A stretch of DNA of 49,633 nucleotides from Candidatus Latescibacterota bacterium (GTDB taxonomy: Bacteria; Latescibacterota; UBA2968; UBA8231), in contig JAJEGS010000038.1 in assembly GCA_022819745.1 (NCBI GenBank), positions 1 through 49,633 of the forward strand, in the 5' to 3' direction. The notes below the pieces were generated by a model. It was not told the origin of the DNA. It searched no databases and was given only the letters and a program-made list of their open reading frames with translations. Shown here in pieces: positions 58 through 13,663 of the stretch. Within the stretch, counting starts at the first letter, position 1, and each line of letters opens with the position of its first letter. Position numbers and translations under genes: made by a program.

Positions 58-1290
58 ATGCACAGTTGGCACCCACAGGAATCAGAACCGTTAGGAAAAA
101 CAAAAAACCTAGCAAAAAGTAAAAATGTAAGGGAATCAGACCACGACTATATCAGACCAGACATGGGCTTGATGGAAACCACCGCTACAGCTCAAGAGAT
201 CAACCGATTTGGACTTAAAGTTGACGACGTCGCGATTACCAAAGATTCCGAAGATTGGTCCGATATTGGAGTTCCCGCCTTGGTTGTCGAGTCCAAATCA
301 GACCTTGTTTGTGGCTACCACTTGGCGATTATTCGCCCCCAAAGACTGGCACTGGTTGGTAGTTTCCTACTGCGTACTCTCCAAGCCGATGCTGTGAATA
401 GGCAGTTTCAGGTCGCCGCAACGGGAGTCACGCGCTACGGACTGCCAAAGTCGGCAATCGGGGAGGCTTGGCTTCTGCTTCCGCCTCAACAAGAACAACG
501 CGCTATCGCCGACTTCCTCGACCGCGAGACAGAGAAAATCGACACGCTGGTGGTGAAGAAGCGAACACTGATCGAGCGGCTAAAAGAGGAACGCACCGCG
601 CTGATTACACATACCGTCACCCGAGGTCTCCCACCCGAGGCCGCCCGCGCCGCTGGCATTGAGCCGCATCCCAAGTTCAAACCCTCTGGTGTCGAGTGGC
701 TTGGGGATGTGCCGGAGCATTGGCGAATTTCTCGACTTTCCCGTTTGACATCTTGTTTAGATGGGAGACGCATTCCATTGAATCGAGAAGAGCGAAGCGA
801 TCGGCAAGGACCGTATCCGTACTGGGGAGCCAACGGAATTGTCGACCACATTGACGACTGGTTATTTGATGAATCTCTTGTGTTGCTGGGTGAGGATGGA
901 GCCCCATTTTTTGCGAAAAATAAAGAGGTGGCGTTTCATGTAACTGGAAAAATCTGGGTAAATAATCATGCTCATGTTCTTCGTCCCCAAGAAAGAAATG
1001 ATTGTCGATTTTTGGCTGCTGCATTGAATCAAACAGAATTTGACATGTTTATAGATGGCTCAACCCGAGACAAGCTAACTCAGGATAAGATGCAAGCGAT
1101 TCCATTGGCGATCCCTTCTCCCATCGAGCAACACGCCATTGCCGACTTCCTTGACCGCGAGACAGAGAAAATCGACACGCTGGTGACAAAAATCGAGATC
1201 GCTATCGAACGACTGCAAGAGTACCGTTCTGCTCTCATCACTGCTACCGTGACCGGAAAAATTGATGCGAGAGAGGAAGCCGCTTTATGA
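58..1290 (+). CDS. hsdS: Type I restriction specificity subunit HsdS, 5' end damaged
   Basis: This is the DNA-recognition subunit of a type I restriction-modification complex; it would pair with HsdM (not in the window) and the HsdR at 8318. Two half-subunits are visible, each a target-recognition domain followed by a helical spacer. The spacer motif QRAIADFLDRETEKIDTLV occurs near residues 146-164 and again as QHAIADFLDRETEKIDTLV near 361-379. The first recognition domain is recognisable only from about residue 30 (YIRPDMGLME, then ITKDSEDWSDIGVPALV). Its normal N-terminal 50-70 residues are absent or unrecognisable, and the frame opens just after a TGA at 4-6. The ATG at 58 is therefore only the first available start, and the gene may be 5' truncated or frameshifted. 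Its TGA overlaps the ATG of the next gene. Confidence 0.85.
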   Translation: MHSWHPQESEPLGKTKNLAKSKNVRESDHDYIRPDMGLMETTATAQEINRFGLKVDDVAITKDSEDWSDIGVPALVVESKSDLVCGYHLAIIRPQRLALVGSFLLRTLQADAVNRQFQVAATGVTRYGLPKSAIGEAWLLLPPQQEQRAIADFLDRETEKIDTLVVKKRTLIERLKEERTALITHTVTRGLPPEAARAAGIEPHPKFKPSGVEWLGDVPEHWRISRLSRLTSCLDGRRIPLNREERSDRQGPYPYWGANGIVDHIDDWLFDESLVLLGEDGAPFFAKNKEVAFHVTGKIWVNNHAHVLRPQERNDCRFLAAALNQTEFDMFIDGSTRDKLTQDKMQAIPLAIPSPIEQHAIADFLDRETEKIDTLVTKIEIAIERLQEYRSALITATVTGKIDAREEAAL

Positions 1291-3113
1291 ACATTGAATC
1301 CATATATTTCAAGGGACATAGCTGTTTCAAAAAGGAGTGGGCTGGCTTCGATACAATCAAGCCGGTCAACGTCATAATTGGACGCAATAACTCTGGAAAA
1401 TCTCATCTGTTAGACTTGGTTGAATCACTGTGTGGCGGCGAGCCGTTTGATCGTGAGTGGCAGTACCAGTGTAGTAGTGTGTTCGATGAGGAATCGCTGA
1501 AGAAAATTTTTTCGGAAGAGGTGAGTAGTGAGGGCTATAGCAATGACTGGAGAAATCACGGACAGTATTTTGTCGGCAAAGAGGTAACGTGGGAATTTAC
1601 TACAGAAGGCAAGCCAGGAGGAGAAAGGCTGACAGGAGGCAGTCAGCCACCTCGAATGAATATATCGAACGTCAAGTATCCAGATGATTTCGACATAACG
1701 TATGGTTTAACTGACAATTACTCACCTCAGGAACGATCAGTCCGTATGAGGCATTCAGGAGTTCATAGGGTTCTAAGCGACGCAATGCACCAGCTTAATG
1801 GGACGTCTTTCAGTAGGCTCTTTGCAGATAGAGACATCAAAATCGAACCAAAAGACATAAAGATAGAACTTGGCCGTGACGGGCAAGGGGCTACCAATAT
1901 AATATGTAGGTTCATCACATTTAATAAACTCCCACGAGAAGTTATCGAAAAGGACCTTCTAGACAAACTGAAATTGATATTTGATAGTGACAGCCAGTTT
2001 TTAGATATCGGAGTGCAAGAGCTTGATGATAGGACAGATGAAACTGATGATAGGGCAGATGAAACAGGGAGCTATTGGGAAGTCTATCTCTATGAGGAAA
2101 AAAAGGGTTGGATTCCTCTCAGTAGGTCGGGAAGTGGTCTGAAGACCGTTATTCTGGTTCTGCTCAATCTACTAGTTGTTCCCAAAATTCCGGATGAGCG
2201 TTATTCTCAATACAAATATAAATCTCCGTTCACATTCGCTTTTGAGGAACTTGAAAACAACCTTCACCCGGCACTCTTACGGCGGTTATTCCAGTATCTT
2301 GAGGAATACGCAGTCAGCGAAAAAGCGACGATATTTCTGACGACCCATTCGAGTATTGCCCTCGATTTTTTCGGCACATCTGACCATGCTCAGATTATCC
2401 ACGTGTCCCACGATGGCGAGTCCGCCCGCACGACAACCATTCCCACGCATTCTGGTTATCTCAAGATAATTTCCGAATTGGGGGTACAGCCATCAGATTT
2501 GCTCCAAGTGAACGGACTCATTTGGGTGGAAGGACCTTCGGACCGCATTTATCTCAATCGCTGGATTGAGCTTTATACCGATGGCCGTCTTCGAGAAGGC
2601 CGCGATTATCAGTGCGTATTCTACGGAGGTTCGATCCTATCACAAGTACAGTTCAAGCCACCTGAAGACGAGGCCACCAAACTCGCTAATCTATTCCAGA
2701 TCAATCACAACTTCATCGTCGTGTGCGACGGAGATCGAACTGCCGGCGACTCTGGTCTAAAATCGAACGTGGAGAGAATTCGCGCGGAAGTCGAAAAGAT
2801 AGACGGCGCACACATTTGGATCACCGAAGCTAAGGAGATTGAGAACTACCTTCTTGGCTCTGTCCTTGAAAAAGTAACAGGCTTGTCTTGTCTGCCAGAT
2901 CCTGGAAAATATGAAAGTTGGTCATCATATACCAAAAAGCATATGCAGAGGAAGGGTACAGAAAAGGTGGGATTAGCTATTTCGAGTACCCAGTATATGA
3001 CAAGCGAAGTAAGAGAAGTAATGGAGAAGCGATTCGATTGGAAGGAACAGATGGAAGAAATCGTCAAGCGCATTGACTCGTGGAACGAAAATAGCCCCTC
3101 GGAAGAGCCGTAA
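1287..3113 (+). CDS. OLD-like ATPase with TOPRIM nuclease domain
   Basis: This is an overcoming-lysogenization-defect (OLD) type protein, a family combining an SMC-like ATPase with a TOPRIM nuclease that often acts in phage defence. The Walker A motif GRNNSGKS is at residues 31-38. An ABC-type Walker B region (FAFEELENNLHP) is near residue 319, followed by a switch histidine (LTTHSS). The C-terminal TOPRIM domain shows VEGPSDR near 413 and VVCDGDR near 477. No UvrD-like partner follows, so it looks like a class 1 single-gene OLD rather than a Gabija pair. It starts on the ATGA overlap with hsdS, suggesting translational coupling. The gene is visibly more AT-rich than hsdR, which fits recent acquisition. 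Its last 20 or so codons are duplicated near 6379-6420. Confidence 0.85.
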   Translation: MNIESIYFKGHSCFKKEWAGFDTIKPVNVIIGRNNSGKSHLLDLVESLCGGEPFDREWQYQCSSVFDEESLKKIFSEEVSSEGYSNDWRNHGQYFVGKEVTWEFTTEGKPGGERLTGGSQPPRMNISNVKYPDDFDITYGLTDNYSPQERSVRMRHSGVHRVLSDAMHQLNGTSFSRLFADRDIKIEPKDIKIELGRDGQGATNIICRFITFNKLPREVIEKDLLDKLKLIFDSDSQFLDIGVQELDDRTDETDDRADETGSYWEVYLYEEKKGWIPLSRSGSGLKTVILVLLNLLVVPKIPDERYSQYKYKSPFTFAFEELENNLHPALLRRLFQYLEEYAVSEKATIFLTTHSSIALDFFGTSDHAQIIHVSHDGESARTTTIPTHSGYLKIISELGVQPSDLLQVNGLIWVEGPSDRIYLNRWIELYTDGRLREGRDYQCVFYGGSILSQVQFKPPEDEATKLANLFQINHNFIVVCDGDRTAGDSGLKSNVERIRAEVEKIDGAHIWITEAKEIENYLLGSVLEKVTGLSCLPDPGKYESWSSYTKKHMQRKGTEKVGLAISSTQYMTSEVREVMEKRFDWKEQMEEIVKRIDSWNENSPSEEP

Positions 3114-3151
3114 CCGGCAGGATCGACGCCATAGAGGAAGTAGCTTTATGA
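3110..3151 (+). pseudogene. Copy of the hsdS 3' end
   Basis: In a frame offset from the OLD-like gene, these bases read VTGRIDAIEEVAL followed by a stop. The C-terminus of the HsdS at 58-1290 reads VTGKIDAREEAAL followed by a stop. The nucleotides also match (gaggaagtagctttatgaac against gaggaagccgctttatgaac), including the overlapping ATGAAC that begins the next ORF. After the ATG at 3148 only a 12-codon ORF remains. I read this as a scar left when the OLD-like cassette was placed next to hsdS by recombination at homologous gene ends. Confidence 0.75.
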
Positions 3152-3221
3152 ACAACCTGTGCTCAGTAGTTCGACTCAGATATTAGAGAGGAACTCCGAA
3201 TCCACACCGATAGGACACGTT

Positions 3222-4268
3222 ATGCTATCTCCAATTGCATTTGATCTAATCATCAAATACTTCGATGCTGTTGATCGCGCCGTCGCAGCGCGTCTTAGCC
3301 GCAAACGGCCGTGGTCCGAACCAGCACTCACGTCACTACTTTGTGACCTACTCGATGAGGAGACGCAGGAAGGCCAGAATCTGTCCTATACACTCAGACA
3401 GCTCAATGAAGAACTCAATGCCTTTGATGGCCTCGAAATGAACGCTACTCTTGAGACCCATGAGTATCCTCCTCATATCGAGCGATGGGTTACGCAATCA
3501 GATCTTGGATTCGTCGTGGGCTTCGACAACTTAATGATTCCAGAAGACTCATGGACTGCTTCATGGCTACTCCAAGCGAAGCGACTGTATCCGACTTCAA
3601 AAAATCCCGTGCAATACGACGAAACGTCGCGATTTGGTGGCATGAATAAAGAACAACATGCACGGATCGAGAAGCTAGTTGACACTACAGACGTGCCCTT
3701 TATCAAGTATCTACTGTACTGTCCTCGTGTTGAATCACTCGACCATGTTACCCGACAAAAGCTTAGGTACTTGCATAACAAATCTCTTACAACACACATC
3801 TATGACTATACTTTTGGGCTTCAACTGTATAATGAGCTCCGAAAAGTAGAGAACTCACTTGGGGCCGGACTTCTAATTGCAGATCCACGCTACTTGCCTG
3901 GTACGTTTGGTGCCGCACACTCAGAACTGTTGAAGCCTATCACTCCTCTTGACTGGCCTTCAGTCACGCCTCTTGCTTGGTTCTTGGCTCTTCAACTCGC
4001 AGATGAGTGTCCCGACATAGATCAGCAACATGGTTTACGTCGCCCTCTTCGCCTTCCCCCAACAGTAGCCCCTCCCAATCATTCTGATCTAGATTGGGTA
4101 CATGGCATTGTCACTGGAGATGAAAAGGCAGTCGAGCGAGTACTGGAACTATTCAACGATGATAATGAACGGGCACCGGAACCATTCCTTCCACCCCATA
4201 CATTGACCATTGGTGTATCTGTCGGACACGATTTGGATCCAGAGCGTAGACGAATTCGAATGGAGTGA
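3222..4268 (+). CDS. Uncharacterised protein, candidate PD-(D/E)XK-like nuclease
   Basis: I do not recognise the family with certainty. The product is 348 residues from the ATG at 3222, which has AGGA six bases upstream; a longer GTG start at 3159 adds 21 unconserved-looking residues. The N-terminal half is helical. Near residues 99-124 is the pattern D-L-G-F-V-V-G ... W-L-L-Q-A-K-R. This acidic residue followed by a QxK strand is the layout of restriction-endonuclease-like folds and recalls DUF6615-type proteins. It lies directly downstream of the OLD-like ATPase inside the split type I system and shares its AT-rich composition, so a defence role is plausible but inferred. No signal peptide or membrane segment is seen. 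Confidence 0.6.
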   Translation: MLSPIAFDLIIKYFDAVDRAVAARLSRKRPWSEPALTSLLCDLLDEETQEGQNLSYTLRQLNEELNAFDGLEMNATLETHEYPPHIERWVTQSDLGFVVGFDNLMIPEDSWTASWLLQAKRLYPTSKNPVQYDETSRFGGMNKEQHARIEKLVDTTDVPFIKYLLYCPRVESLDHVTRQKLRYLHNKSLTTHIYDYTFGLQLYNELRKVENSLGAGLLIADPRYLPGTFGAAHSELLKPITPLDWPSVTPLAWFLALQLADECPDIDQQHGLRRPLRLPPTVAPPNHSDLDWVHGIVTGDEKAVERVLELFNDDNERAPEPFLPPHTLTIGVSVGHDLDPERRRIRME

Positions 4269-4374
4269 GAAAGTTGTTCAACAATTCGCTCAACTGGAGC
4301 GGCGATTGAGCACGATCTGAGTTAGAATTCTTATTTTTTCATGCCAACGAAGGCAACGAACCCATTCTCCACTA

Positions 4375-4653
4375 ATGAAAGAACATCATCAAGTAACCGG
4401 ACTGCACTTTGATGGGGATTGCATGATTCTGACTATCGATGGTCGAGAAAAGACCTTTCAAGTGAGAGAAATAGCTCCTACCCTGCAAAATGCATCTGAA
4501 AAAGAAAAAAATCTCTTTGAAATCTCTCCTTCGGGCTGCGGTATCTATTGGCCACTGCTCGACGAGGACCTGTCCATTGACGGATTATTTGGCCTTGTTC
4601 ACAGATCAAAAAAGAAGGAAGTTCCTCCCGCTACAAAACCACGCTCTCCTTGA
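4375..4653 (+). CDS. DUF2442 family protein
   Basis: A 92-residue protein with the DUF2442 layout: a small beta-rich start (VTGLHFDGDCMILTIDGREKTFQV), a basic-acidic centre and the closing motif GCGIYWPLLDEDLSIDGL near residues 62-79. DUF2442 proteins usually sit next to DUF4160 partners in toxin-antitoxin-like pairs, and their biochemical role is not settled. No DUF4160 gene is present here, so this copy looks like an orphan. It is preceded by a gap of about 105 bases after the candidate nuclease, and a DUF433 gene follows 36 bases downstream in the same direction. Confidence 0.75.
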   Translation: MKEHHQVTGLHFDGDCMILTIDGREKTFQVREIAPTLQNASEKEKNLFEISPSGCGIYWPLLDEDLSIDGLFGLVHRSKKKEVPPATKPRSP

Positions 4654-4689
4654 CGCAGGTAGAAGCCGACAACATGAAGAAGAATCGTC

Positions 4690-4926
4690 ATGCTAGGATT
4701 TGAACGCATTACCTTTGACCCGGATGTAATGGGCGGTCGGGCCTGTATCCGAGGTATGCGCGTAACGGTCTCCCTCGTGCTCAATCTGGTCGCTAGTGGG
4801 ATGTCAACCGAGAAGATTTTAGAGGTCTACCCATACCTCGAAGCCGAAGATATTAGCGAATGTCTGCGTTACGCGGCGTGGTTGGCAGAAGATGCCGTAT
4901 ATGCGGTGGCACCGTCCCCGGCATGA
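4690..4926 (+). CDS. DUF433 antitoxin-like protein, orphan
   Basis: A 78-residue DUF433 protein. The diagnostic stretch is RITFDPDVMGGRACIRGMRV, followed by a helix and the LEAEDISECLRYAAWLAED ending. DUF433 proteins are small DNA-binding antitoxins usually encoded just upstream of a DUF5615 or other PIN-like toxin. No toxin follows: the 218 bases before the HEPN gene contain no recognisable partner. A second DUF433 that does keep a partner is at 49062-49283. This copy may have lost its toxin or act as a stand-alone regulator. Confidence 0.8.
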   Translation: MLGFERITFDPDVMGGRACIRGMRVTVSLVLNLVASGMSTEKILEVYPYLEAEDISECLRYAAWLAEDAVYAVAPSPA

Positions 4927-5020
4927 AATTCACGAGGACGGCCAGAAACCTGAATCGCCCCTTCGACGGATGATGTTCTTGGGAAACCGATTCCCTGCCG
5001 GACGGAGGCTTCTCTTAATT

Positions 5021-5042
5021 GACAAGAGGTTCGATTCTTGTC
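5021..5042 (+). other. Hairpin in the DUF433-HEPN gap
   Basis: GACAAGA (5021-5027) and TCTTGTC (5036-5042) form a perfect 7-bp stem around an 8-base loop. The flanking arms GGCCAGAAACC (about 4940) and GGTTTCTGGC (about 5065) are also complementary, so the whole 4940-5075 interval could fold. No T-run follows, so it is not a standard terminator. Otherwise nothing recognisable occupies 4927-5144. Confidence 0.4.
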
Positions 5043-5144
5043 ATCTTGTCCTAGAGCTTCTCTGGTTTCTGGCTTTCGTTGGAAGGAAGAATGACACGCC
5101 TTGATCCACGTCGTACACAGCCTAAACGATTTGATTAGAAAACC

Positions 5145-5582
5145 ATGTCGAACACCGAAGCTGAAAAATCCCTATCACGCGCAAAACAGCATTTGGAACG
5201 CGTCCTTGCAGCATGGGATGACCCTACTGATTGGGCAGACCTTACAATCTATGGGTTTTACTGTCTTGAAGCCTCTGTTGTTGCGGCGGCATCACATATA
5301 GGTATGGAACTCAAAAGAACCCATGTAGCTAAGGCTGAAATGGCAAGCGAACTTTCTCGCTCTCATAGCCTACCTGATATTGCCAATTTTCTTTCGGTTC
5401 TCAATAGCGCCCGTAAAGCTGCGGCCTATGGAGATGTAGATTTTCCAGTATTGAATGCACAGGATGTGGCCATTGAAATTGAGGATTACGTGGAAGCAGT
5501 TTCTGCGTTATTAGGAGATGAACCAAATGAGCAATCCTCTGATGAACAAGATGAACAACAAGATGAACAAGATGAACAATAG
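5145..5582 (+). CDS. HEPN-domain protein of a HEPN-MNT pair
   Basis: A 145-residue helical protein of the HEPN type, the RNase-like or acceptor half of HEPN-MNT toxin-antitoxin modules. In those modules the MNT partner neutralises HEPN by adding nucleotides. Seen directly: alpha-helical sequence with LEASVVAAASHIGM, SLPDIANFLSVLNSARKAAAYGDVDFP and an acidic C-terminus made of DEQ repeats. The usual catalytic RX4-6H is not present; the equivalent place reads R-K-A-A-A-Y, with Tyr instead of His. It may therefore be a non-nucleolytic HEPN or use another residue. The 3' end overlaps the MNT gene in a different frame. Confidence 0.7.
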   Translation: MSNTEAEKSLSRAKQHLERVLAAWDDPTDWADLTIYGFYCLEASVVAAASHIGMELKRTHVAKAEMASELSRSHSLPDIANFLSVLNSARKAAAYGDVDFPVLNAQDVAIEIEDYVEAVSALLGDEPNEQSSDEQDEQQDEQDEQ

Positions 5583-6243
5583 GCCCGAAAGCGTGGATTC
5601 ATCTCGCGTCCTCGAAACGATCGATAAATGGCCCAGTACTCGTGCAAAAGAATGGGTCGAAAACTTTGTCCAAATATCTCGTCAGCAATCCGACATCTGG
5701 GCGATTGTGATTTTCGGTTCCATTACTCGTCCGCGAGTCATATACAGTGTTGATGTTGACTTACTGGTCATTTATGAGAGCGAAAAGCCGAATTTTGTAC
5801 TCCCACCCCTTGATGTCGATATTCGGTCGTATCGTCAAGAGGATATAGAATCTCTTCTTTTAGAGGGACATGAACTTCTATGTTGGACGATTCTCTTTGG
5901 AAAAGTTCTCTATGAAAAAGATACATATTGGACAACCCTATGTGATAAATGGAAAAATTCTCTGCCTTTGCCTTCTGCAAAAACAGCAGATAAACGCGCA
6001 AAAAGAGCGAAGCAGCTCTTCGAGGATCTCAAAGTGATCGGTGACGAGGACGCGGCTCAGGAACAATACATTACGATGTTGACGCAAATTGCTCGTGCCT
6101 ATTTAATCAGGTCAGATATCTACCCTGCATCCCGCCCTGAATTACCAGATCAATTAAAATCTGTTGGAGAACACGAGCTTGCCTCTCAATTGGAAAAAGC
6201 ATTGCATACGCGTCGTGAATGGATGGAGACGCAAGCAATTTAG
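5527..6243 (+). CDS. MNT-type nucleotidyltransferase of a HEPN-MNT pair
   Basis: A minimal nucleotidyltransferase of the polymerase-beta superfamily, the presumed antitoxin of the HEPN protein just upstream. The active-site signature GSITRPRVIYSVDVDLLV carries GS, then DxD ten residues later; a third acidic residue lies in LDVDIRSY. A helical C-terminal domain follows (about residues 150-238). Several in-frame ATGs (5518, 5527, 5542, 5551, 5563, 5572) fall inside the repeat shared with the HEPN 3' end. I chose 5527 because AGGAG at 5513-5517 is nine bases upstream. The genes overlap by about 56 bases, implying coupled translation. Confidence 0.75.
   Translation: MSNPLMNKMNNKMNKMNNRPESVDSSRVLETIDKWPSTRAKEWVENFVQISRQQSDIWAIVIFGSITRPRVIYSVDVDLLVIYESEKPNFVLPPLDVDIRSYRQEDIESLLLEGHELLCWTILFGKVLYEKDTYWTTLCDKWKNSLPLPSAKTADKRAKRAKQLFEDLKVIGDEDAAQEQYITMLTQIARAYLIRSDIYPASRPELPDQLKSVGEHELASQLEKALHTRREWMETQAI
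5540..5579 (+). repeat. Dual-coding tandem repeat (GATGAACAA-type)
   Basis: Four GATGAACAA-like units occur in direct succession, with two more degenerate units upstream from 5516. In the HEPN frame they encode DEQ repeats and in the MNT frame they encode MNK/MNN repeats, each with its own ATG. Gain or loss of nine-base units keeps both frames open. Confidence 0.8.
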
Positions 6244-6251
6244 CCACTGGC

Positions 6252-6269
6252 CTCCCGCCTTCGCGGGAG
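6252..6269. repeat. REP-like GC-rich hairpin
   Basis: CTCCCGC-CTTC-GCGGGAG is a perfect 7-bp stem with a four-base loop, nine bases after the MNT stop. It resembles the widespread short interspersed hairpins with a CCCGCCTTCGCGGG core found in many bacterial genomes. No T-tract follows, so it is more likely a REP-type element than a terminator. Confidence 0.55.
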
Positions 6270-6335
6270 CGACCGTCGTCTTTTCCCGCCAACAATTTCA
6301 GAGCCAAAGCTCCTCTACCATCCTCCCATCTTTCC

Positions 6336-6440
6336 ATGAACACCCCAACCAACAAACAAGCCTTTGAAGCCCAAAAGGAACAGATGAAACAAATCGTCGA
6401 GCGCATTGACTCGTGGAACGGGAATTCTGTTAGTACGTGA
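6336..6440 (+). pseudogene. Chimeric remnant: hsdR 5' end joined to OLD-like 3' end
   Basis: The 34-codon ORF starts MNTPTNKQAFEAQ, nearly identical to the HsdR start MNAQTNEQAFEAQ at 8318. It then switches to KEQMKQIVERIDSWN, which matches KEQMEEIVKRIDSWN at the C-terminus of the OLD-like protein at 1287-3113. The match extends into nucleotides, including the untranslated CTTCCATGAAC before the start. Nothing between the two ends remains. It looks like the product of a deletion or recombination that fused the two gene ends. Confidence 0.75.
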
Positions 6441-6450
6441 GCTACCAATC

Positions 6451-8298
6451 ATGCCCGATAGAATAGACAAAGCCTTAAAAAAGCTAGCCGACCTCATCGC
6501 GGCAGGACGCTTCGAGAACGTGGAAGACGACGGCTTGGAAATCAAACCCACTCCTTCGGCTACCTCTTCTTGGCGCGAAAGCCACAAATCCGCCAACGCC
6601 TTTCTCAACACCCGCGGCGGCCTCCTCCTTTTCGGCTGCAAGGAAGAAGGCCAAGGCCCGCAGCGTCGGTGGGTCTTCACTGGCTACCGGGAGGACGCCG
6701 AAGCACAGCTAAAGGAGTTCCCGCGCTGCTTTACGGACAAAAACGGAACGCCGCTCGACCTGAGCGAATTCTTTCCGCCGCCGCAAATCCGCGACTTTCA
6801 AAATGGTCGCGTAGCCGTGCTCTACGTAGATGAACTACCCGCCGACCGCAAGTTTGTCTTTTACAATGGACAGGCGTGGAAGCGCGTCCTAACCGGCGAC
6901 CACAAGCTCACCGAAGCCGACATCGCTCGCCAAGAAGAGTACAAGGAACAAGTGCGGGACGCCCGCGAAGTACAGCCCGTGCCGGGCACGACCCTCGCCG
7001 ACCTCAACCTCGACGCGCTCAATGACTACATCCAACAGCTCAACAGCCTTGGCAAAGTGGAAACCATCAAGGCCGACCTAGCAGCGGCCCGCGGATTTCT
7101 CGCCCGCAAACTGTTTATCAAGGACGAAACCGTCACCACCCTCGGCATGTTAGTATGCGGGCAGCACGTAGGCGACCAACTCGGCTTCCGCTGCCACGTC
7201 CACGGCTACGTAGATGCGCCGCAAGAAGTCGCCCAAGACAAGCAGGACCTAATCGACAACATCCTGCCGCTGATGGAGAAAAGCCTCGCCTACATCCTGC
7301 GCAACATCCAGATCGGCATTTCCATTGCCGAGGGCGGCACGGCCGTGCCGCAATATCCCGAGGAAGTGCTGCGCGAAACAGTAAACAACGCCCTCGCCCA
7401 CCGCGATTATTCCATCAACAAGCAAGTCATCATTTCCATCAAGCCGGGGCAACACATTTCCATTCGCAATCCAGGGTCATTCCGTCCCCATTTACTCATT
7501 GAGCATCCAAGAGACCCCATTCCACTGCGCCGCATCATCCCCGAAGCCCGAGCGCGCAACCCCAAACTAGCGGATGTGCTGCGGGTGTACCGGAAGTGGG
7601 AGGGCCGGGGTATTGGCATGGCCACGTTGGTAAACCTGTGCTTGGAAAATCAGATCGACCTGCCGACTTATCGCATTCACAGCGAAGAAGTAACCCTCTT
7701 TCTCAACGCCGGTCCTTTAGTCGGCAGGCGTATGGAGACACGGCTTGTTTCGTTTGACGCCTATATTGCCGACAAACTCGGCGGACCGCTCTCAGTCCAA
7801 CAAGCGCACGTACTCTCCTACCTGATGAAAGCGGAATGGGCGAATGAAAAACATCACTACACCATTCTGCTGACGCCAGACAACAATCACTTTGAACAAC
7901 TCGTAGTGCTAGAACGCGCTGGCCTGATCTACCAACACGATAGCAGCACACCGACGCAACCCATTTTCGTCGCTGATCGCGTGCTGATGCAAACGGATTA
8001 CCGCACGGAACTAGAATCACTATTTGGCGACCTTAGCAGTTTGGATCCTCTGTCGCGGAGGTGCCTTAACGTTATGTGGCGGCGCGAAAAGTTCGCATTC
8101 CGCAAGGTCGTATCGGAACCAGAGGTCATCTTAGCACTTTGGCACGAACGCGGCACTATTCAAGACGCAGATGAATTCGCCGACCATGCCCGCCAAGTAA
8201 GCGACGCTATTGAAAACTTGGCAGAAGCGGAATTCATCGTCCATGATAGAGACCACTCCGGTTTTGTGCTCAATACACAACGAACTCGTTTAACTTGA
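6451..8298 (+). CDS. Schlafen AlbA-domain protein with C-terminal ATPase-like domain
   Basis: A 615-residue protein of the ATP-dependent DNA helicase-related/Schlafen AlbA_2 family. The N-terminal AlbA domain shows LEIKPTPSATSSWRESHKSANAFLNTRGGLLLFG (about residues 30-63, with E31 and K33). The middle contains the HATPase_c_4-like signature VLRETVNNALAHRDYS near residue 308. The C-terminus is winged-helix-like. Such proteins are frequent in defence islands and beside type I restriction genes; their role is regulatory or nucleolytic and not settled. I prefer the ATG at 6451, just after the chimeric remnant, over 6406, which would overlap it. hsdR follows after 19 bases. Confidence 0.8.
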   Translation: MPDRIDKALKKLADLIAAGRFENVEDDGLEIKPTPSATSSWRESHKSANAFLNTRGGLLLFGCKEEGQGPQRRWVFTGYREDAEAQLKEFPRCFTDKNGTPLDLSEFFPPPQIRDFQNGRVAVLYVDELPADRKFVFYNGQAWKRVLTGDHKLTEADIARQEEYKEQVRDAREVQPVPGTTLADLNLDALNDYIQQLNSLGKVETIKADLAAARGFLARKLFIKDETVTTLGMLVCGQHVGDQLGFRCHVHGYVDAPQEVAQDKQDLIDNILPLMEKSLAYILRNIQIGISIAEGGTAVPQYPEEVLRETVNNALAHRDYSINKQVIISIKPGQHISIRNPGSFRPHLLIEHPRDPIPLRRIIPEARARNPKLADVLRVYRKWEGRGIGMATLVNLCLENQIDLPTYRIHSEEVTLFLNAGPLVGRRMETRLVSFDAYIADKLGGPLSVQQAHVLSYLMKAEWANEKHHYTILLTPDNNHFEQLVVLERAGLIYQHDSSTPTQPIFVADRVLMQTDYRTELESLFGDLSSLDPLSRRCLNVMWRREKFAFRKVVSEPEVILALWHERGTIQDADEFADHARQVSDAIENLAEAEFIVHDRDHSGFVLNTQRTRLT

Positions 8299-8317
8299 AG
8301 CGTAAACCAAGCCTTCC

Positions 8318-11300
8318 ATGAACGCCCAAACCAACGAACAAGCCTTTGAAGCCCAAGTCGAGGCGATGCTCCTCGGGCTAGGCGGCTGGCATTGCGGCAC
8401 CACCGCCGAGTGGGATGTCGAGCGTGCCCTTTTCCCGGCGCAAGTCTGCGCTTTCCTCGCCGAGACGCAGCCGACGCTGTGGGAACAGATGCGTGCCCTG
8501 CACGGTGCTGGACTTGAAGACCTACTGATCGACGCGCTAGTCAAAGAACTCGACATCAAAGGCACGCTGCACATCCTGCGCCACGGCTTCAAGTTCTACG
8601 GCAAGACCTTCCGGCTAGCGTACTTCAAGCCCGCCCACGCCCTCAACGACGAAGTGCTGGCATTGTACGCGCAAAACAAGCTGACAGTCACGCGGCAAGT
8701 TCCCTGCCATCCCAATAAGCGCGACACAGTAGATCTGTTGTTCGCTCTAAACGGACTGCCCGTGGCGACTTGCGAGCTAAAAAATCCCAGCACTGGCCAA
8801 AGCTGGCGGCAAGCCGTACGGCAATACCAAGAGGACCGCGACCCACGCGCACCGCTGTTCCGCTTCAAAACGCGGGCGCTGGTGCATTTCGCCGCCGATC
8901 CAGACGAAGTACACATGATCACGCGCCTCAACGGTGAAGACACGCGCTTCCTCCCCTTCAACCGAGGCAGCCACCCAGGCCAAGTGCAATGCGGTGCTGG
9001 CAACCCGCAGCACGCCTCGGGCTACCGCACCGGCTATTTCTGGCAAGAAGTGCTGGAACGCGACAGCTTCCTCGACATCCTCGGCCATTTCATGTTCGTC
9101 GAGAAGAAAGAGGAAAAGAGCGAAGACGACCAAGGCAGTGCTCGACGCATCGTCCACGAGACCATGATTTTCCCTCGCTACCATCAACTCGATTCCGTAC
9201 GGCAGCTAGTCGCCGCAGCGCGGGCAGATGGGGCAGGCCAGAATTATTTGGTGCAGCATTCGGCGGGCAGCGGCAAGACCAACAGCATCTCTTGGCTTTC
9301 ACATCGCCTCGCCAGCTTGCACGACGATAAGGACCACAAAGTCTTTGACTGCATCGTCGTCATCACTGATCGCCGTGTGTTAGACCAACAACTCCAAGAC
9401 GCGATCTACCAGATTGAACACGCCCAAGGCGTAGTCAAGGCGATTGACCAAGACAGCCACCAACTCGCCAACGCCCTAATCGACGGCACCAAGATCGTCG
9501 TCACCACGCTCCAGAAATTCCCGTTCGTGTTGCGCGGGTTGCTGCGCACCGCTGGGGCCGAGTCGCAGGAGACCGCCACCGCCGAGGAGCGAGCGCAGGC
9601 CAAGGCTTGGGAAGCGGAAATCGGCAAGCGTCAGTATGCGGTGATTGTAGATGAGGCGCACTCCAGCCAGACCGGCGAGACCGCGCGGGAACTCAAGGAG
9701 ATTCTGGGTGCAGGCACGGATGCCGAAGGAGAACAAGACTGGGAAGACCGCCTAAATCAAGTGATGGCTTCGAGGGGACGGCAGCCGAACCTGTCATTTT
9801 TCGCCTTTACGGCTACTCCCAAGGGCAAGACGCTAGAGCTATTTGGCCGCCCTGGTGTTCGAGGCGTACCCGAGGCGTTCCACCTGTACAGCATGCGGCA
9901 AGCCATTGAGGAGGGCTTCATCCTCGATGTACTCGCGAACTACACGACCTACAATGTTTATTACCGGCTGCTCAAAAACGCAGAGGACGACCCGAATCTG
10001 CCGAAGAAGAAGGCGGCCCGCGCCCTAGCGAAATTCGCAAGCTTCCACCCTCACAACATCGAGCAGAAGACCGAAGTAATCGTCGAGCACTTCCGCAACA
10101 AGGTGCAGCACCGGCTCGGTAGCCGTGCCAAAGCCATGGTAGTCACGGCATCGCGGCTACACGCCGTGCGCTACAAACTCTCCTTCGAGCGATACATAGA
10201 GGAAAAGGGCTATGCGGACATCCGTCCGCTCGTCGCCTTCAGCGGCACCGTGCGCGACCCCGACACCGGCCTTGAATACACAGAGCCGGGCATGAACGTG
10301 GATGTCGTCACCGGCAAGCCCATCAGCGAAGCGGCGCTGCCCGACCGCTTCGACTCCCCCGACTACCAAGTACTGCTGGTTGCGAACAAGTACCAGACGG
10401 GCTTTGATCAGCCACGCCTGTGCGCGATGTACGTGGACAAGCGGCTCGATGGAGTCCAGGCCGTGCAGACACTCTCGCGGCTCAACCGCACGGCTCCGGG
10501 TAAGGACGCTCCGTTCGTGCTCGATTTCGTCAACAATACCGAAGACATCTTGAATGCCTTCAAGCCGTATTACGACAAGACCGAAATAGTAGAGGCGTCC
10601 GACCCTTCAAGGCTAGAGGCCCTAAAACACGAACTCGACCAAGCGCAGGTTTATTACTGGAGTGAGGTCGAGGAGTTCACCGGGGTGTTCTACAAAGCCC
10701 CCGAAGACCAAAGGCCTAGCGATCACGCCGACATGCAAAAGTGCCTCCAGCCAGCCGTAACTCGCTTCGCCGCAATCGAGCAAGACGAAGCCCGCGAGCA
10801 GTTCCGTGACAAACTCTCCGGGTATGTAGGGCTATACGCTTACTTGAGCCAGATCGTTCCCTACGGCGATCCTGAACAAGAAATGCTCTACAGCTACGGG
10901 CACTTTCTATTACCACACTTGCCTCTCGACCGCGACGACGAGGTCATCAAGCTAGGTAGCGAAGTCGCTCTCCAGTACTACCGGCTGGAGCGTGTTTCCT
11001 CGGGGCCGATAAATGTGTCAGAAGGCGAGCCTCAGCACGTCAGGCCCCCGACCGAGGTCGGTACTGGCCGGGCGCAGGACCCCAAGGCTCCCCTCTCGGA
11101 GATCATCGAGGTGCTGAACGAACGCTTCGGGACGCAGTTCAATGAAGTGGATCGGCTCTTTTTTCAGCAGATCAAGGAAAAAGCCTGCAACGACGAAACC
11201 GTAGTGGAGACGGCGCGCGCTAATCCGCGTGACCGGTTCGAGTTGGGAATCAAGAGCCGCCTCGACGAATTAATGATCGAGCGCATGAGCGAGAACGACC

Positions 11301-11419
11301 AGATCGCGGAGCGCTATCTGTCGGACGAAACGTTTCGGAGTTTGGCCCTGCCCATCCTCGCGCGGGCCATATTCGAGGACTTACAGACGAAAGGTGCGGA
11401 TGCGCCCACGCCGGGATAA
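8318..11419 (+). CDS. hsdR: Type I restriction endonuclease subunit HsdR
   Basis: The 1033-residue motor and nuclease subunit of a type I restriction complex, which translocates DNA using ATP and cuts unmodified DNA. The N-terminal nuclease domain has the PD-(D/E)XK pattern D-L-L-F ... C-E-L-K-N-P near residues 136-153. The SF2 helicase core shows Walker A SAGSGKT near 315, motif II IVDEAHSSQ near 443 and motif III FFAFTATPK near 492. The later motif is QTGFDQPRL near 695. Length is normal for the family. Its partner hsdS is about 7 kb upstream, and hsdM is presumably beyond the left edge. The 5' 40 bases have a near copy at 6331-6375. Confidence 0.95.
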   Translation: MNAQTNEQAFEAQVEAMLLGLGGWHCGTTAEWDVERALFPAQVCAFLAETQPTLWEQMRALHGAGLEDLLIDALVKELDIKGTLHILRHGFKFYGKTFRLAYFKPAHALNDEVLALYAQNKLTVTRQVPCHPNKRDTVDLLFALNGLPVATCELKNPSTGQSWRQAVRQYQEDRDPRAPLFRFKTRALVHFAADPDEVHMITRLNGEDTRFLPFNRGSHPGQVQCGAGNPQHASGYRTGYFWQEVLERDSFLDILGHFMFVEKKEEKSEDDQGSARRIVHETMIFPRYHQLDSVRQLVAAARADGAGQNYLVQHSAGSGKTNSISWLSHRLASLHDDKDHKVFDCIVVITDRRVLDQQLQDAIYQIEHAQGVVKAIDQDSHQLANALIDGTKIVVTTLQKFPFVLRGLLRTAGAESQETATAEERAQAKAWEAEIGKRQYAVIVDEAHSSQTGETARELKEILGAGTDAEGEQDWEDRLNQVMASRGRQPNLSFFAFTATPKGKTLELFGRPGVRGVPEAFHLYSMRQAIEEGFILDVLANYTTYNVYYRLLKNAEDDPNLPKKKAARALAKFASFHPHNIEQKTEVIVEHFRNKVQHRLGSRAKAMVVTASRLHAVRYKLSFERYIEEKGYADIRPLVAFSGTVRDPDTGLEYTEPGMNVDVVTGKPISEAALPDRFDSPDYQVLLVANKYQTGFDQPRLCAMYVDKRLDGVQAVQTLSRLNRTAPGKDAPFVLDFVNNTEDILNAFKPYYDKTEIVEASDPSRLEALKHELDQAQVYYWSEVEEFTGVFYKAPEDQRPSDHADMQKCLQPAVTRFAAIEQDEAREQFRDKLSGYVGLYAYLSQIVPYGDPEQEMLYSYGHFLLPHLPLDRDDEVIKLGSEVALQYYRLERVSSGPINVSEGEPQHVRPPTEVGTGRAQDPKAPLSEIIEVLNERFGTQFNEVDRLFFQQIKEKACNDETVVETARANPRDRFELGIKSRLDELMIERMSENDQIAERYLSDETFRSLALPILARAIFEDLQTKGADAPTPG

Positions 11420-11459: not shown

Positions 11460-11996
11460 TCACTGTATCAACCGATCGACTTGAGCCAAAATTGCATCAG
11501 GCGTCGGCCGGTCGGAAATACTTTCCCCTACGTACTTCCATTCGATGTCGCCCCCAGGCAAGACGATGACGGCGGACGGCGTCGCGACGCCGTCACTCAG
11601 CAGGTTGTAAACTCCGTAGTCCTTGGCGACCTCGGCGTCCTTATCTGACAGGATGGCGAATTCAGCGCCGGTGAGCTCCACCATTTTCAGTGCATCGGCG
11701 ATGTCATCCGTGCTGATCGCCGCAAGCGACACATTGCGCTCTAGAAACTCGGGATATACATCTGCCAACTCACCTAGTTGGCTCCGACAGGAACCTCAGA
11801 AGAATCCTCTGTAGAACAGCAGTACCGCCGCCGCGCGGTTGTCGAGTAAGTCAGATAGGGAAACCGAAGTCCCATCCGCCGCCGGTAAGGTGAATGCAGG
11901 CGCTCGCCCGCCCGTGGAGACCGGATTGGACCTGCAGCCGACGAGGGCGATGAGGGTCGCAGTTACCAAGGACAGAAGTACTGCGCTACGGTGCAT
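11460..11996 (-). CDS. Lipoprotein peroxiredoxin-like selenoprotein (in-frame UGA = Sec)
   Basis: An AhpC/TSA-type thioredoxin-fold protein of 178 residues if the TGA at 11796-11798 is read as selenocysteine (residue 67). Both flanking segments are in the same frame and give FYRGFF-U-GSCRSQLGELADVYPEF. Relatives have FYRGxWCPxC there, so U67 replaces the first redox cysteine and C70 is the partner (UxxC). The start ATG at 11996 has AGGAG upstream and gives a lipoprotein signal (ALVGC), so it is exported and membrane anchored, with a likely role in peroxide or thiol redox chemistry. Downstream of the UGA, GCCAACT-AGGTG-AGTTGGC forms a SECIS-like hairpin. Third gene of an operon with the CBM9-like protein (10 bases) and the epimerase. 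The alternative is a pseudogene with a nonsense mutation. Confidence 0.8.
11764..11782 (-). promoter_or_regulatory. Candidate bacterial SECIS element
   Basis: On the minus strand the mRNA reads UGA, 13 bases, then GCCAACU-AGGUG-AGUUGGC: a perfect 7-bp stem with a five-base loop. The apical loop begins 20 bases after the UGA and has G at its second position. This fits the published bacterial SECIS pattern (loop 16-37 bases after UGA, a G among the first loop bases) recognised by SelB. Confidence 0.75.
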
Positions 11997-12006
11997 TTTC
12001 TTTCTC

Positions 12007-12828
12007 CTACTCGGCGAGCCGCCCAATCGGCATCCGGGGCCCAACCAAGATCATCCGCCCCCACGTGTTATCGTCGTCGCCATTGCCGTAAATCATGAAG
12101 TGCCCGCCGTATGCGCCGCCGTCCGGGTCGGTGTGGACGATTTCCATGCTGTATTCGTCGCCCACTTGCGGCGGCTGCCAGCGGGGATCGCTGTGAGCAA
12201 ACGTCGCGTGCATATCCACGCGGGCCTCCAAAATAAAATCAGCCGCGCTCCGGCCCCAAGGATCCATGCGCACCACATAGTCGCAAGCGGCCTCGGGGAT
12301 CGGCTCTTCAATGTAGCTCTGGCCGGATACGCCGTGCCGCCACCAAGCGTTTTGCGGCGTGCGCTGCGGGTCGGCCACAAAGCAGAAGGCGTTGTCGCCT
12401 TGGCCGAAGCGCTCGTTGGCCCGGTCGCGCGGGCCTTCCATAAACCAGCAAATCGCATCCTTGAAATACCAGCGCTTGTCCGCCGGATCGGGGTCGTCGA
12501 GATCGTTGACATTGTCCCAGACTTCGGCCCCGAAGTAAAAGTTTTGCGCGTCCCAAGCAATGTAGTAGCGGGCGCGCAAGTCGTCTTCGAGGTGTGGCTC
12601 GTCACCGTGGTCGGTGAGGCGGTTGCGCACGCCGCGATCGAGGCGGTAGAAGCCAGCCTCGCTGATGCGGCGCATGTCCCAGATGCCATCGTTGTGGGCG
12701 CGGTCCTTCCACTCGGCAAGGTCGCCGTCAATGGTCGGAGCCGTCTCCAATAAGGGAGCGTTGATGTTCATGTCCGCGTATGCGGCAGAAGCCACGAGCA
12801 AAATCGCGCACATAGCAAAAGGCAGCAT
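12007..12828 (-). CDS. Secreted CBM9-like (carbohydrate-binding family 9-type) protein
   Basis: A 273-residue exported protein. The ATG at 12828 follows AGGAGAAAATTT and gives the signal peptide MLPFAMCAILLVASAAYA, with cleavage after AYA. The mature part begins with the CBM9/DUF1083-type pattern (TAPTIDGDLAEWKD), then ARYYIAWDAQNFYFGAEVWDN and FCFVADPQ, ending with an ARVDMHATFAHSDPRW segment. Such domains bind sugars or occur alone as periplasmic or outer-surface proteins. It lies 11 bases after the epimerase gene and 10 bases before the selenoprotein, so the three are probably co-transcribed. The longer open frame up to 13197 is overlap with the epimerase and is not supported. Confidence 0.75.
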   Translation of the reverse strand: MLPFAMCAILLVASAAYADMNINAPLLETAPTIDGDLAEWKDRAHNDGIWDMRRISEAGFYRLDRGVRNRLTDHGDEPHLEDDLRARYYIAWDAQNFYFGAEVWDNVNDLDDPDPADKRWYFKDAICWFMEGPRDRANERFGQGDNAFCFVADPQRTPQNAWWRHGVSGQSYIEEPIPEAACDYVVRMDPWGRSAADFILEARVDMHATFAHSDPRWQPPQVGDEYSMEIVHTDPDGGAYGGHFMIYGNGDDDNTWGRMILVGPRMPIGRLAE

Positions 12829-12839
12829 AAATTTTCTCC

Positions 12840-13586
12840 TCAGCGATAGTCTTCGGCTCGGTCCGCGGGCACAAAGCCCACCGTCTGGCGAGCGTGTTCT
12901 AAGTCGCGGTAGCCCCATTTGTTGTCCGAGTTGACGAAGAAGGTGTCGAAAGACAAGTCGAAGGGAGCGGCAAGGCACTTTTCGATCATCTGCACGGCGT
13001 CGCGCTGGCTGCACCAGACGCAGAACTCGCGGGAATGGGTCGGGCGGTTTTCCGGGTTGACGCGGCCAAAGCGCAGGCAGAGGACGGACATGCCGTGGGC
13101 CGAGGCGTACTCGCGGCCCAACTCTTCGCCCCAGACCTTGCTGGCTGCATACAGGCCCGTTGGCCGCAGGGGCGATTGCGCCGTCAGCATCGGCCACTCG
13201 GCGGGCACTTGGTCGTACTCGCCGGCCAAAAGCTCCTTGTATGGCGAGAGCGCGGCGTAGCCACCCATGACCGACCCACTGCTAGCGAAGAGGACGCGCC
13301 GCACCCCGGCCTCTTGAGCTGCGGCAAAAACATTCCCAGTGCCCTGCAAGTTGGCGCGGAAGATTGCCGCTATATCGTTTTCAATCTGGGCGGCGAGATG
13401 GACGACCGCGTCGATCCCCGCAAAGGCCGGCCGGATGGCATCGAGATCGGCAATATCGGCCTGGTGGCAGTCGATGTTTGGGAGTGGGCGGCGGTTGAGG
13501 GCGCGCAGATTGTAGTGTCTGCGCAGGCTGGCGACAGCGGCCGTGCCGATCAAACCCGTGGCACCCGTGATGAGGATGTTTTGCAT
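12840..13586 (-). CDS. NAD-dependent epimerase/dehydratase (extended SDR)
   Basis: A 248-residue Rossmann-fold oxidoreductase acting on nucleotide sugars or free sugars. The cofactor loop is GATGLIG at residues 8-14, an aspartate that may bind the ribose (QADIADLDAI) follows, and the catalytic YAASK motif lies near residue 148 with the upstream serine in FASSGS. The ATG at 13586 is chosen because it begins directly before the first beta strand (MQNILITG); the frame continues upstream to 13619 without supporting homology. First gene of the three-gene minus-strand operon and divergent from the transporter operon at 13701. Confidence 0.85.
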   Translation of the reverse strand: MQNILITGATGLIGTAAVASLRRHYNLRALNRRPLPNIDCHQADIADLDAIRPAFAGIDAVVHLAAQIENDIAAIFRANLQGTGNVFAAAQEAGVRRVLFASSGSVMGGYAALSPYKELLAGEYDQVPAEWPMLTAQSPLRPTGLYAASKVWGEELGREYASAHGMSVLCLRFGRVNPENRPTHSREFCVWCSQRDAVQMIEKCLAAPFDLSFDTFFVNSDNKWGYRDLEHARQTVGFVPADRAEDYR

Positions 13587-13663
13587 AAGCCTATTTGGGA
13601 TGTGAGTGTTGGCTCTCATTAGTAAGGAATACGACCAGACGTGTCCAGCGGGCGCGGCCCGTG

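Follow-up and report, generated by a model that had tools for sequence, protein, structure and literature searches.

The closest described relatives of the gene considered here are the Prx-like thiol:disulfide oxidoreductase selenoproteins, which the available parts of the sources (PMC1088965, PMC2398784, PMC9312934, PMC13188914) characterize by the PF00578 domain and a UxxC or UxxU motif, and which appear as “Prx-like 1” in the Global Ocean Sampling (GOS) survey. The present work concerns a gene of this kind on a 49,633-nucleotide stretch of DNA from a Candidatus Latescibacterota bacterium (contig JAJEGS010000038.1; the whole stretch is called the window). The gene is proposed to encode a Prx-like UxxC lipoprotein that contains selenocysteine, with a UGA recoded through a hairpin and SelB and with a membrane-tethered redox role, a reading to which we assign a probability of roughly 0.93; the UGA inside the gene almost certainly encodes selenocysteine (Sec), as judged from comparative sequence evidence. 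As far as the available parts of those sources describe the published proteins, the window protein has in common with them the PF00578 domain, the UxxC motif (here UGSC) and a bacterial selenocysteine insertion sequence (SECIS) after the UGA, but it differs from them in its lipoprotein-type signal and its epimerase/CBM9-like neighbourhood, a comparison made between descriptions and not between sequences. The terms “lipoprotein” and “signal peptide” are absent from the available text of PMC13188914, PMC9312934 and PMC2398784, which does not show that the published members lack signals. The Sec-containing peroxiredoxins (PF00578, TxxU) share the domain, but the window protein has Sec at the place of their Thr and Cys at the place of their Sec. 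The kind of selenoprotein is already known; what is new is a lipoprotein-type branch of it in this lineage, represented by mostly fragment-sized database entries.

When the internal UGA is translated as Sec, the gene reads ...VLLFYRGFF-U-GSCRSQLGEL..., and 111 sense codons separate Sec67 from a terminal UGA stop. A preliminary description of this DNA had claimed that a UGA interrupts a single AhpC/TSA-like frame which continues cleanly for 111 codons, that the UGA occupies the first Cys position of FYRGxWCPxC, and that a lipoprotein signal with a good ribosome site precedes it. These claims were borne out by the translation and the AhpC/TSA (PF00578) domain match, which is far above the cut-off of 26 bits, by an 18-row alignment with relatives (A3) in which Cys stands opposite the UGA in 9 rows, and by the lipobox and ribosome site listed in Table 1. 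Relatives with FYRGxWCxxC carry its first Cys at the UGA position. The lipobox Cys21, in a signal judged by eye, is invariant in 10/10 orthologues.

Table 1. Coordinates of the putative selenoprotein gene, its elements and its neighbours in the window, and of a second family found in related genomes.
Feature	Position	Strand	Remarks
Putative Prx-like UxxC selenoprotein gene	11460..11996	(-)	178 aa (amino acids) + final UGA stop; AhpC-TSA 95.6 bits, Redoxin 72 bits
In-frame UGA, almost certainly read as Sec	11796..11798	(-)	codon 67
Cys70, second residue of UxxC	11787..11789	(-)	invariant in alignments A2 (10 rows) and A3 (18 rows)
SECIS-like hairpin GCCAACU-AGGUG-AGUUGGC	11764..11782	(-)	7-bp stem; loop AGGUG starts 20 nt after UGA
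Lipoprotein-type signal peptide, lipobox LVGC	11934..11996	(-)	sequence by eye; Cys21 at 11934-11936
Ribosome site AGGAG	12004..12008	(-)	7 nt before ATG; overlaps upstream gene's stop codon (12009-12007)
CBM9-like gene, upstream	12007..12828	(-)	N-terminal signal by eye; Pfam CBM9_1 E 0.00041, 20.7 vs cut-off 23.4 bits
NAD-dependent epimerase/dehydratase gene, upstream of CBM9-like gene	12840..13619	(-)	Epimerase 93.8 bits
Members of second UxxC family	L012:1447-2340; L017 (minus, open reading frame 961-2628); L074-L085		AhpC/TSA + FlgD_ig/secretion tail, domains tested on L012

The conservation of the UGA was evaluated in orthologues detected by searches with the read-through protein, which identified 14 loci among genome contigs (9 close orthologues, L028-L036, and 5 distant proteins) and, at E <= 1e-20, the gene in 8 of 64 genomes of the nearest phylum (inferred to be Latescibacterota). 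The 8 genome loci duplicate loci of the contig search by translation and coordinates (L009, for example, is L030) and were dropped from the count, which leaves 10 distinct sequences, the window included, from separately named records. The orthologue records bear the titles Latescibacterota/Latescibacteria (4), Gemmatimonadota/Gemmatimonadetes/Gemmatimonadaceae (4) and Dehalococcoidia (1); the Gemmatimonad titles are read as loose labels because those four genomes (G049, G045, G044, G062, matched by translation) fall in the family of G001, the genome nearest to the window (26% of the sampled 31-mers shared), whose contig coordinates match those of a Candidatus Latescibacterota metagenome-assembled genome (L030). 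Codon 67 is TGA in all ten distinct orthologues. The ratio of nonsynonymous to synonymous substitution rates (dN/dS) after the UGA is 0.13-0.26 in 9/9 comparisons with the window, which are not independent since they share the window sequence; judged by these rates, the frame after the UGA is under purifying selection.

A protein-database search returned 98 hits, the first 90 of which (P0002-P0091) are 99-112 amino acids long and span no more than 61% of the query. The five short entries that were examined (P0002, P0003, P0086, P0090 and P0091) all start after the UGA, three others (P0092-P0094) terminate exactly at FYRGFF, and the remaining five hits are distant full-length proteins. Going by where they begin and end, such post-UGA and pre-UGA fragments are the pattern of automatic gene calls at a Sec codon, which points to a single longer protein as the source of about 90 fragment-sized entries.

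The bacterial SECIS model, as given in the available part of PMC13188914, places a G in one of the first two loop positions and the loop 16-37 nt from the UGA for most elements. The window hairpin agrees with it in both respects, its G being at loop position 2, and the earlier claim of a perfect 7-bp stem with a suitably placed loop is thereby confirmed. A search for this exact stem around any 5-nt loop found it at one place in the window and in none of 100 shuffles, and the hairpin is present in the predicted fold of a 58-nt segment. In a control which required a loop of 3-14 nt that starts 16-37 nt after a TGA and has G in its first two bases, perfect stems of at least 7 bp were found at 7 of the 1352 TGA trinucleotides of the window (both strands, all frames), the selenoprotein's included. 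The hairpin by itself is about 1-in-200 evidence only, and it is therefore the conservation tests that carry the case. Over 8 distinct rows (the 10 sequences with identical ones counted once), 98.2% of the stem pair cells are formed, and there are compensatory changes at the outer pair, from G-C to A-U in L033, and at an inner pair, from A-U to G-C in L036, the latter through two synonymous changes in a gene whose protein is about 65% identical; changes on both sides of a pair are absent from slid controls. In the Rfam search nothing in the window reached the gathering score and no SECIS family was hit; near the hairpin the matches were at chance level only.

The Sec machinery was looked up in G001 and in the 8 carrier genomes. 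G001 contains tRNA-Sec (70.3 bits, anticodon TCA), selB (353 bits) and selA (561 bits), and the search of this genome for selD gave a 377-bit match with an internal TGA. Among the carriers, tRNA-Sec (anticodon tca) and selA are present in 8/8 and selB in 7/8, and one of them, G050, is a single 6.3-Mb contig (by coordinates the chromosome record of L033) that bears the gene together with tRNA-Sec, selA and selB. As a separate observation, the internal TGA of the selD of G001 (L053; C64:13111-14034, minus strand) means that it may itself encode a selenoprotein.

A number of results weigh against the proposed reading or limit how much can be read into its support. The genome of the window itself lies outside the machinery evidence, selB was not found in the carrier G045 (75% complete), and selB is widespread beyond the carriers (44/64 genomes), so that co-occurrence, taken alone, is weak evidence; tRNA-Sec likewise occurs in four non-carriers of the same genus. 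No carrier is among the 19 genomes with a rating of 90% completeness or more and 5% contamination or less, and the 8 carriers are rated 2-10% contaminated. The 58-nt segment is no more stable than its shuffles (z -0.31; 68/200 shuffles at least as stable), which is why the case for the hairpin rests on conservation, and within the stem 5/7 pairs never vary and the outer pair is broken in L036 by a C facing a C. The column-shuffle control is modest: the covariation score was reached in 17 of 500 shuffles, the percentage paired in 26, either count of both-side changes likewise in 26, and the count of further pair types in 175. The covariation of the stem is therefore moderate support.

If the UGA were a nonsense change in a Cys-type gene, or a miscalled TGC or TGT, the gene would be a pseudogene or a sequencing error. 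Cys forms of the AhpC/TSA domain do exist, but an identical UGA in every one of the distinct orthologues, the purifying selection downstream of it and the compensatory changes in the hairpin are all contrary to this explanation, which we regard as very improbable. An equally slight chance is given to the possibility that there are two proteins, a short exported peptide that ends at the UGA and a second one whose reading frame of 102 amino acids, which is present, begins at TTG 11768; the preponderance of short entries with partial coverage (90/98 database hits) would seem to speak for it, but such entries are the expected output of a gene caller that treats UGA as a stop. The division would moreover split one confidently modelled domain, at a point after the strand 56-61 and before the helix 68-86, while Cys homologues run continuously across the UGA position and residues are conserved on both sides of it.

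The UGA might also stand for a different amino acid, such as the Trp of code 4, and two full-length relatives do have Trp at the Sec position: FYRGFW-W-TYC (P0105) and FYRGYF-W-GIC (P0106). The longest contigs of these two are only 948 and 1043 bases, however, and a code-4 gene call would be expected to print W for a TGA. The same gene uses UGA as its terminal stop, related genomes contain tRNA-Sec, selA and selB, and the UGA column holds Cys in the 9 rows of A3, so that decoding as another amino acid, though marginally easier to entertain than a pseudogene or a pair of proteins, is also highly improbable. The Trp of P0105 and P0106 perhaps represents TGA translated by code 4, and is possibly a marker of hidden selenoproteins in metagenome protein sets; if it is indeed TGA, the Sec branch would reach down to about 37-43% identity.

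With Sec as the preferred reading of codon 67, the structural model bears on the function of the protein. The predicted fold is a confidently modelled single domain with the peroxiredoxin fold, in which the UGA position lies between the strand and the helix named above. The active-site motif of true peroxiredoxins is PxxxTxxC; its Pro and Thr/Ser are seen in 3 Bcp-like rows of A3, whereas the window protein lacks the motif and has Arg63, Sec67 and Cys70 instead. Of the peroxiredoxin identity put forward in the preliminary description the fold has therefore been retained and the active-site motif has not: the combination of a peroxiredoxin fold with a thioredoxin-like UxxC places this protein with the “Prx-like UxxC” kind rather than among the true peroxiredoxins. 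In thioredoxins the nucleophilic Cys is at the helix that corresponds to 68-86.

According to the proposed mechanism, the hairpin after the UGA would recruit SelB and Sec-tRNA(UCA) for the insertion of Sec67, while the terminal UGA would still act as a stop. The product would be exported and held at a membrane through a lipid attached to Cys21; Sec67, positioned directly ahead of the helix, would attack a disulfide or peroxide, Cys70 would close a selenenylsulfide, and an external thiol reductant would reopen it. The mature protein has no Cys beyond the lipidated-type Cys21 and Cys70, and because Cys70 is the only free partner, the oxidised form would have to be a selenenylsulfide of Sec67 with Cys70 or else a bond to a thiol of another molecule. 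A membrane-tethered thiol/peroxide reductase is favoured. The order of attack could be the reverse, as in a peroxiredoxin mechanism in which Cys70 is peroxidatic and Sec67 merely resolving, which would leave the insertion of Sec unaffected. The fold is compatible with this, Cys70 aligns with the Cys of SPVC in archaeal Bcp (U67 aligns with Ser), and Cys70 is invariant in 18/18 rows of A3, Bcp types included. The Pro and Thr/Ser of the peroxiredoxin motif are replaced, however, and the known Sec peroxiredoxins, as described in the available part of PMC1088965, are of the TxxU type with Sec at the other place. We consider the peroxidatic role of Cys70 unlikely, and judge a first attack by Sec67 rather than Cys70 to be favoured at about 3 to 1.

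The best NCBIfam matches of the window protein (Bcp, NF006960; ResA, NF002854; the SelL-related redox protein, NF040769) score 50-53 bits against cut-offs of 120-170, and 0/11 of the listed models reach their cut-off, so that many annotations could be corrected together by a new model. Eukaryotic SelU/PRXL2 were considered as possible kin. The Cys-type relatives P0112 and P0118 have, by eye, a lipobox-like start as in the window protein, but Cys replaces Sec (FYRAFWCTSC and FYRGFFCGQC) and their identity to it is 39% and 31%. In the open-licence PMC literature no selenoprotein study of Latescibacterota was found (PMC8318568 and PMC9999580, in their available parts, concern Sec in other organisms), nor anything on a lipoprotein signal together with a bacterial selenoprotein or selenocysteine, and for sponge-symbiont selenoproteins there was nothing relevant by title among the matches listed. 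With this gene the bacterial selenoproteome gains a branch that is well supported and probably exported.

A second UxxC family came to light through two weak paralogues in G001, L012 and L017, each with one TGA at the UxxC position. The read-through protein of L012, in which FlgD_ig (32 bits) and Por_Secre_tail (27.9 bits) are not far above the cut-off of 27, has 25 matches in 17/64 genomes; 23 of them cover the motif, each with exactly one TGA, and the two without a TGA cover only the tail. A codon check placed the TGA at the motif in 13/13 of the motif-covering matches that were checked, which comprise the query gene (L074), the paralogue already seen (L017) and 11 further genes, and by eye a short hairpin follows soon after the TGA in the minimum-energy fold of 11 of these loci, the exceptions being L081 and L017. 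The family is probably exported and supports a broader exported set of Sec redox proteins in the lineage. It is conceivable, though somewhat short of an even chance, that the lineage has a selenium-based thiol redox system outside the cytoplasm, composed of the lipid-anchored UxxC protein described here and at least one further UxxC family, secreted and ending in a secretion/FlgD-Ig tail at the C terminus. Sec proteins would then function both on the membrane and extracellularly, in a system that would have stayed hidden because gene calls stop at UGA; the observations suggest that there are bacteria whose selenocysteine enzymes are located on the membrane and beyond it.

The CBM9-like and epimerase neighbours named in the preliminary description are real and conserved, although the CBM9 assignment falls below the Pfam cut-off. 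Both genes lie upstream in 7/9 orthologue loci; L036 is without them, and the upstream sequence of L032 is too short to tell. The CBM9-like and selenoprotein genes are apparently translationally coupled. In L030, L031 and L033 an extra open frame (about 5400-5990), which we take to be a Uma2-type nuclease, lies between these two genes; it was considered as a second selenoprotein and rejected, being a separate open frame, and the selenoprotein gene there seems to begin at a GTG that overlaps the stop of the inserted frame. A scan of the window for other frames joined by TGA produced a long list from which no second candidate was picked out by eye. On the other side, type I restriction genes occupy positions 58-11419 (hsdS-like, 58-1290; hsdR-like, 8318-11419); a gene for an AAA ATPase and one of Schlafen type lie between these two, and 40 bases separate the end of the block from the selenoprotein gene. 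Some of the 9 orthologues have short flanks; next to them hsdR was found once, at L034, and relatives of the AAA ATPase at three loci, L028, L031 and L033.
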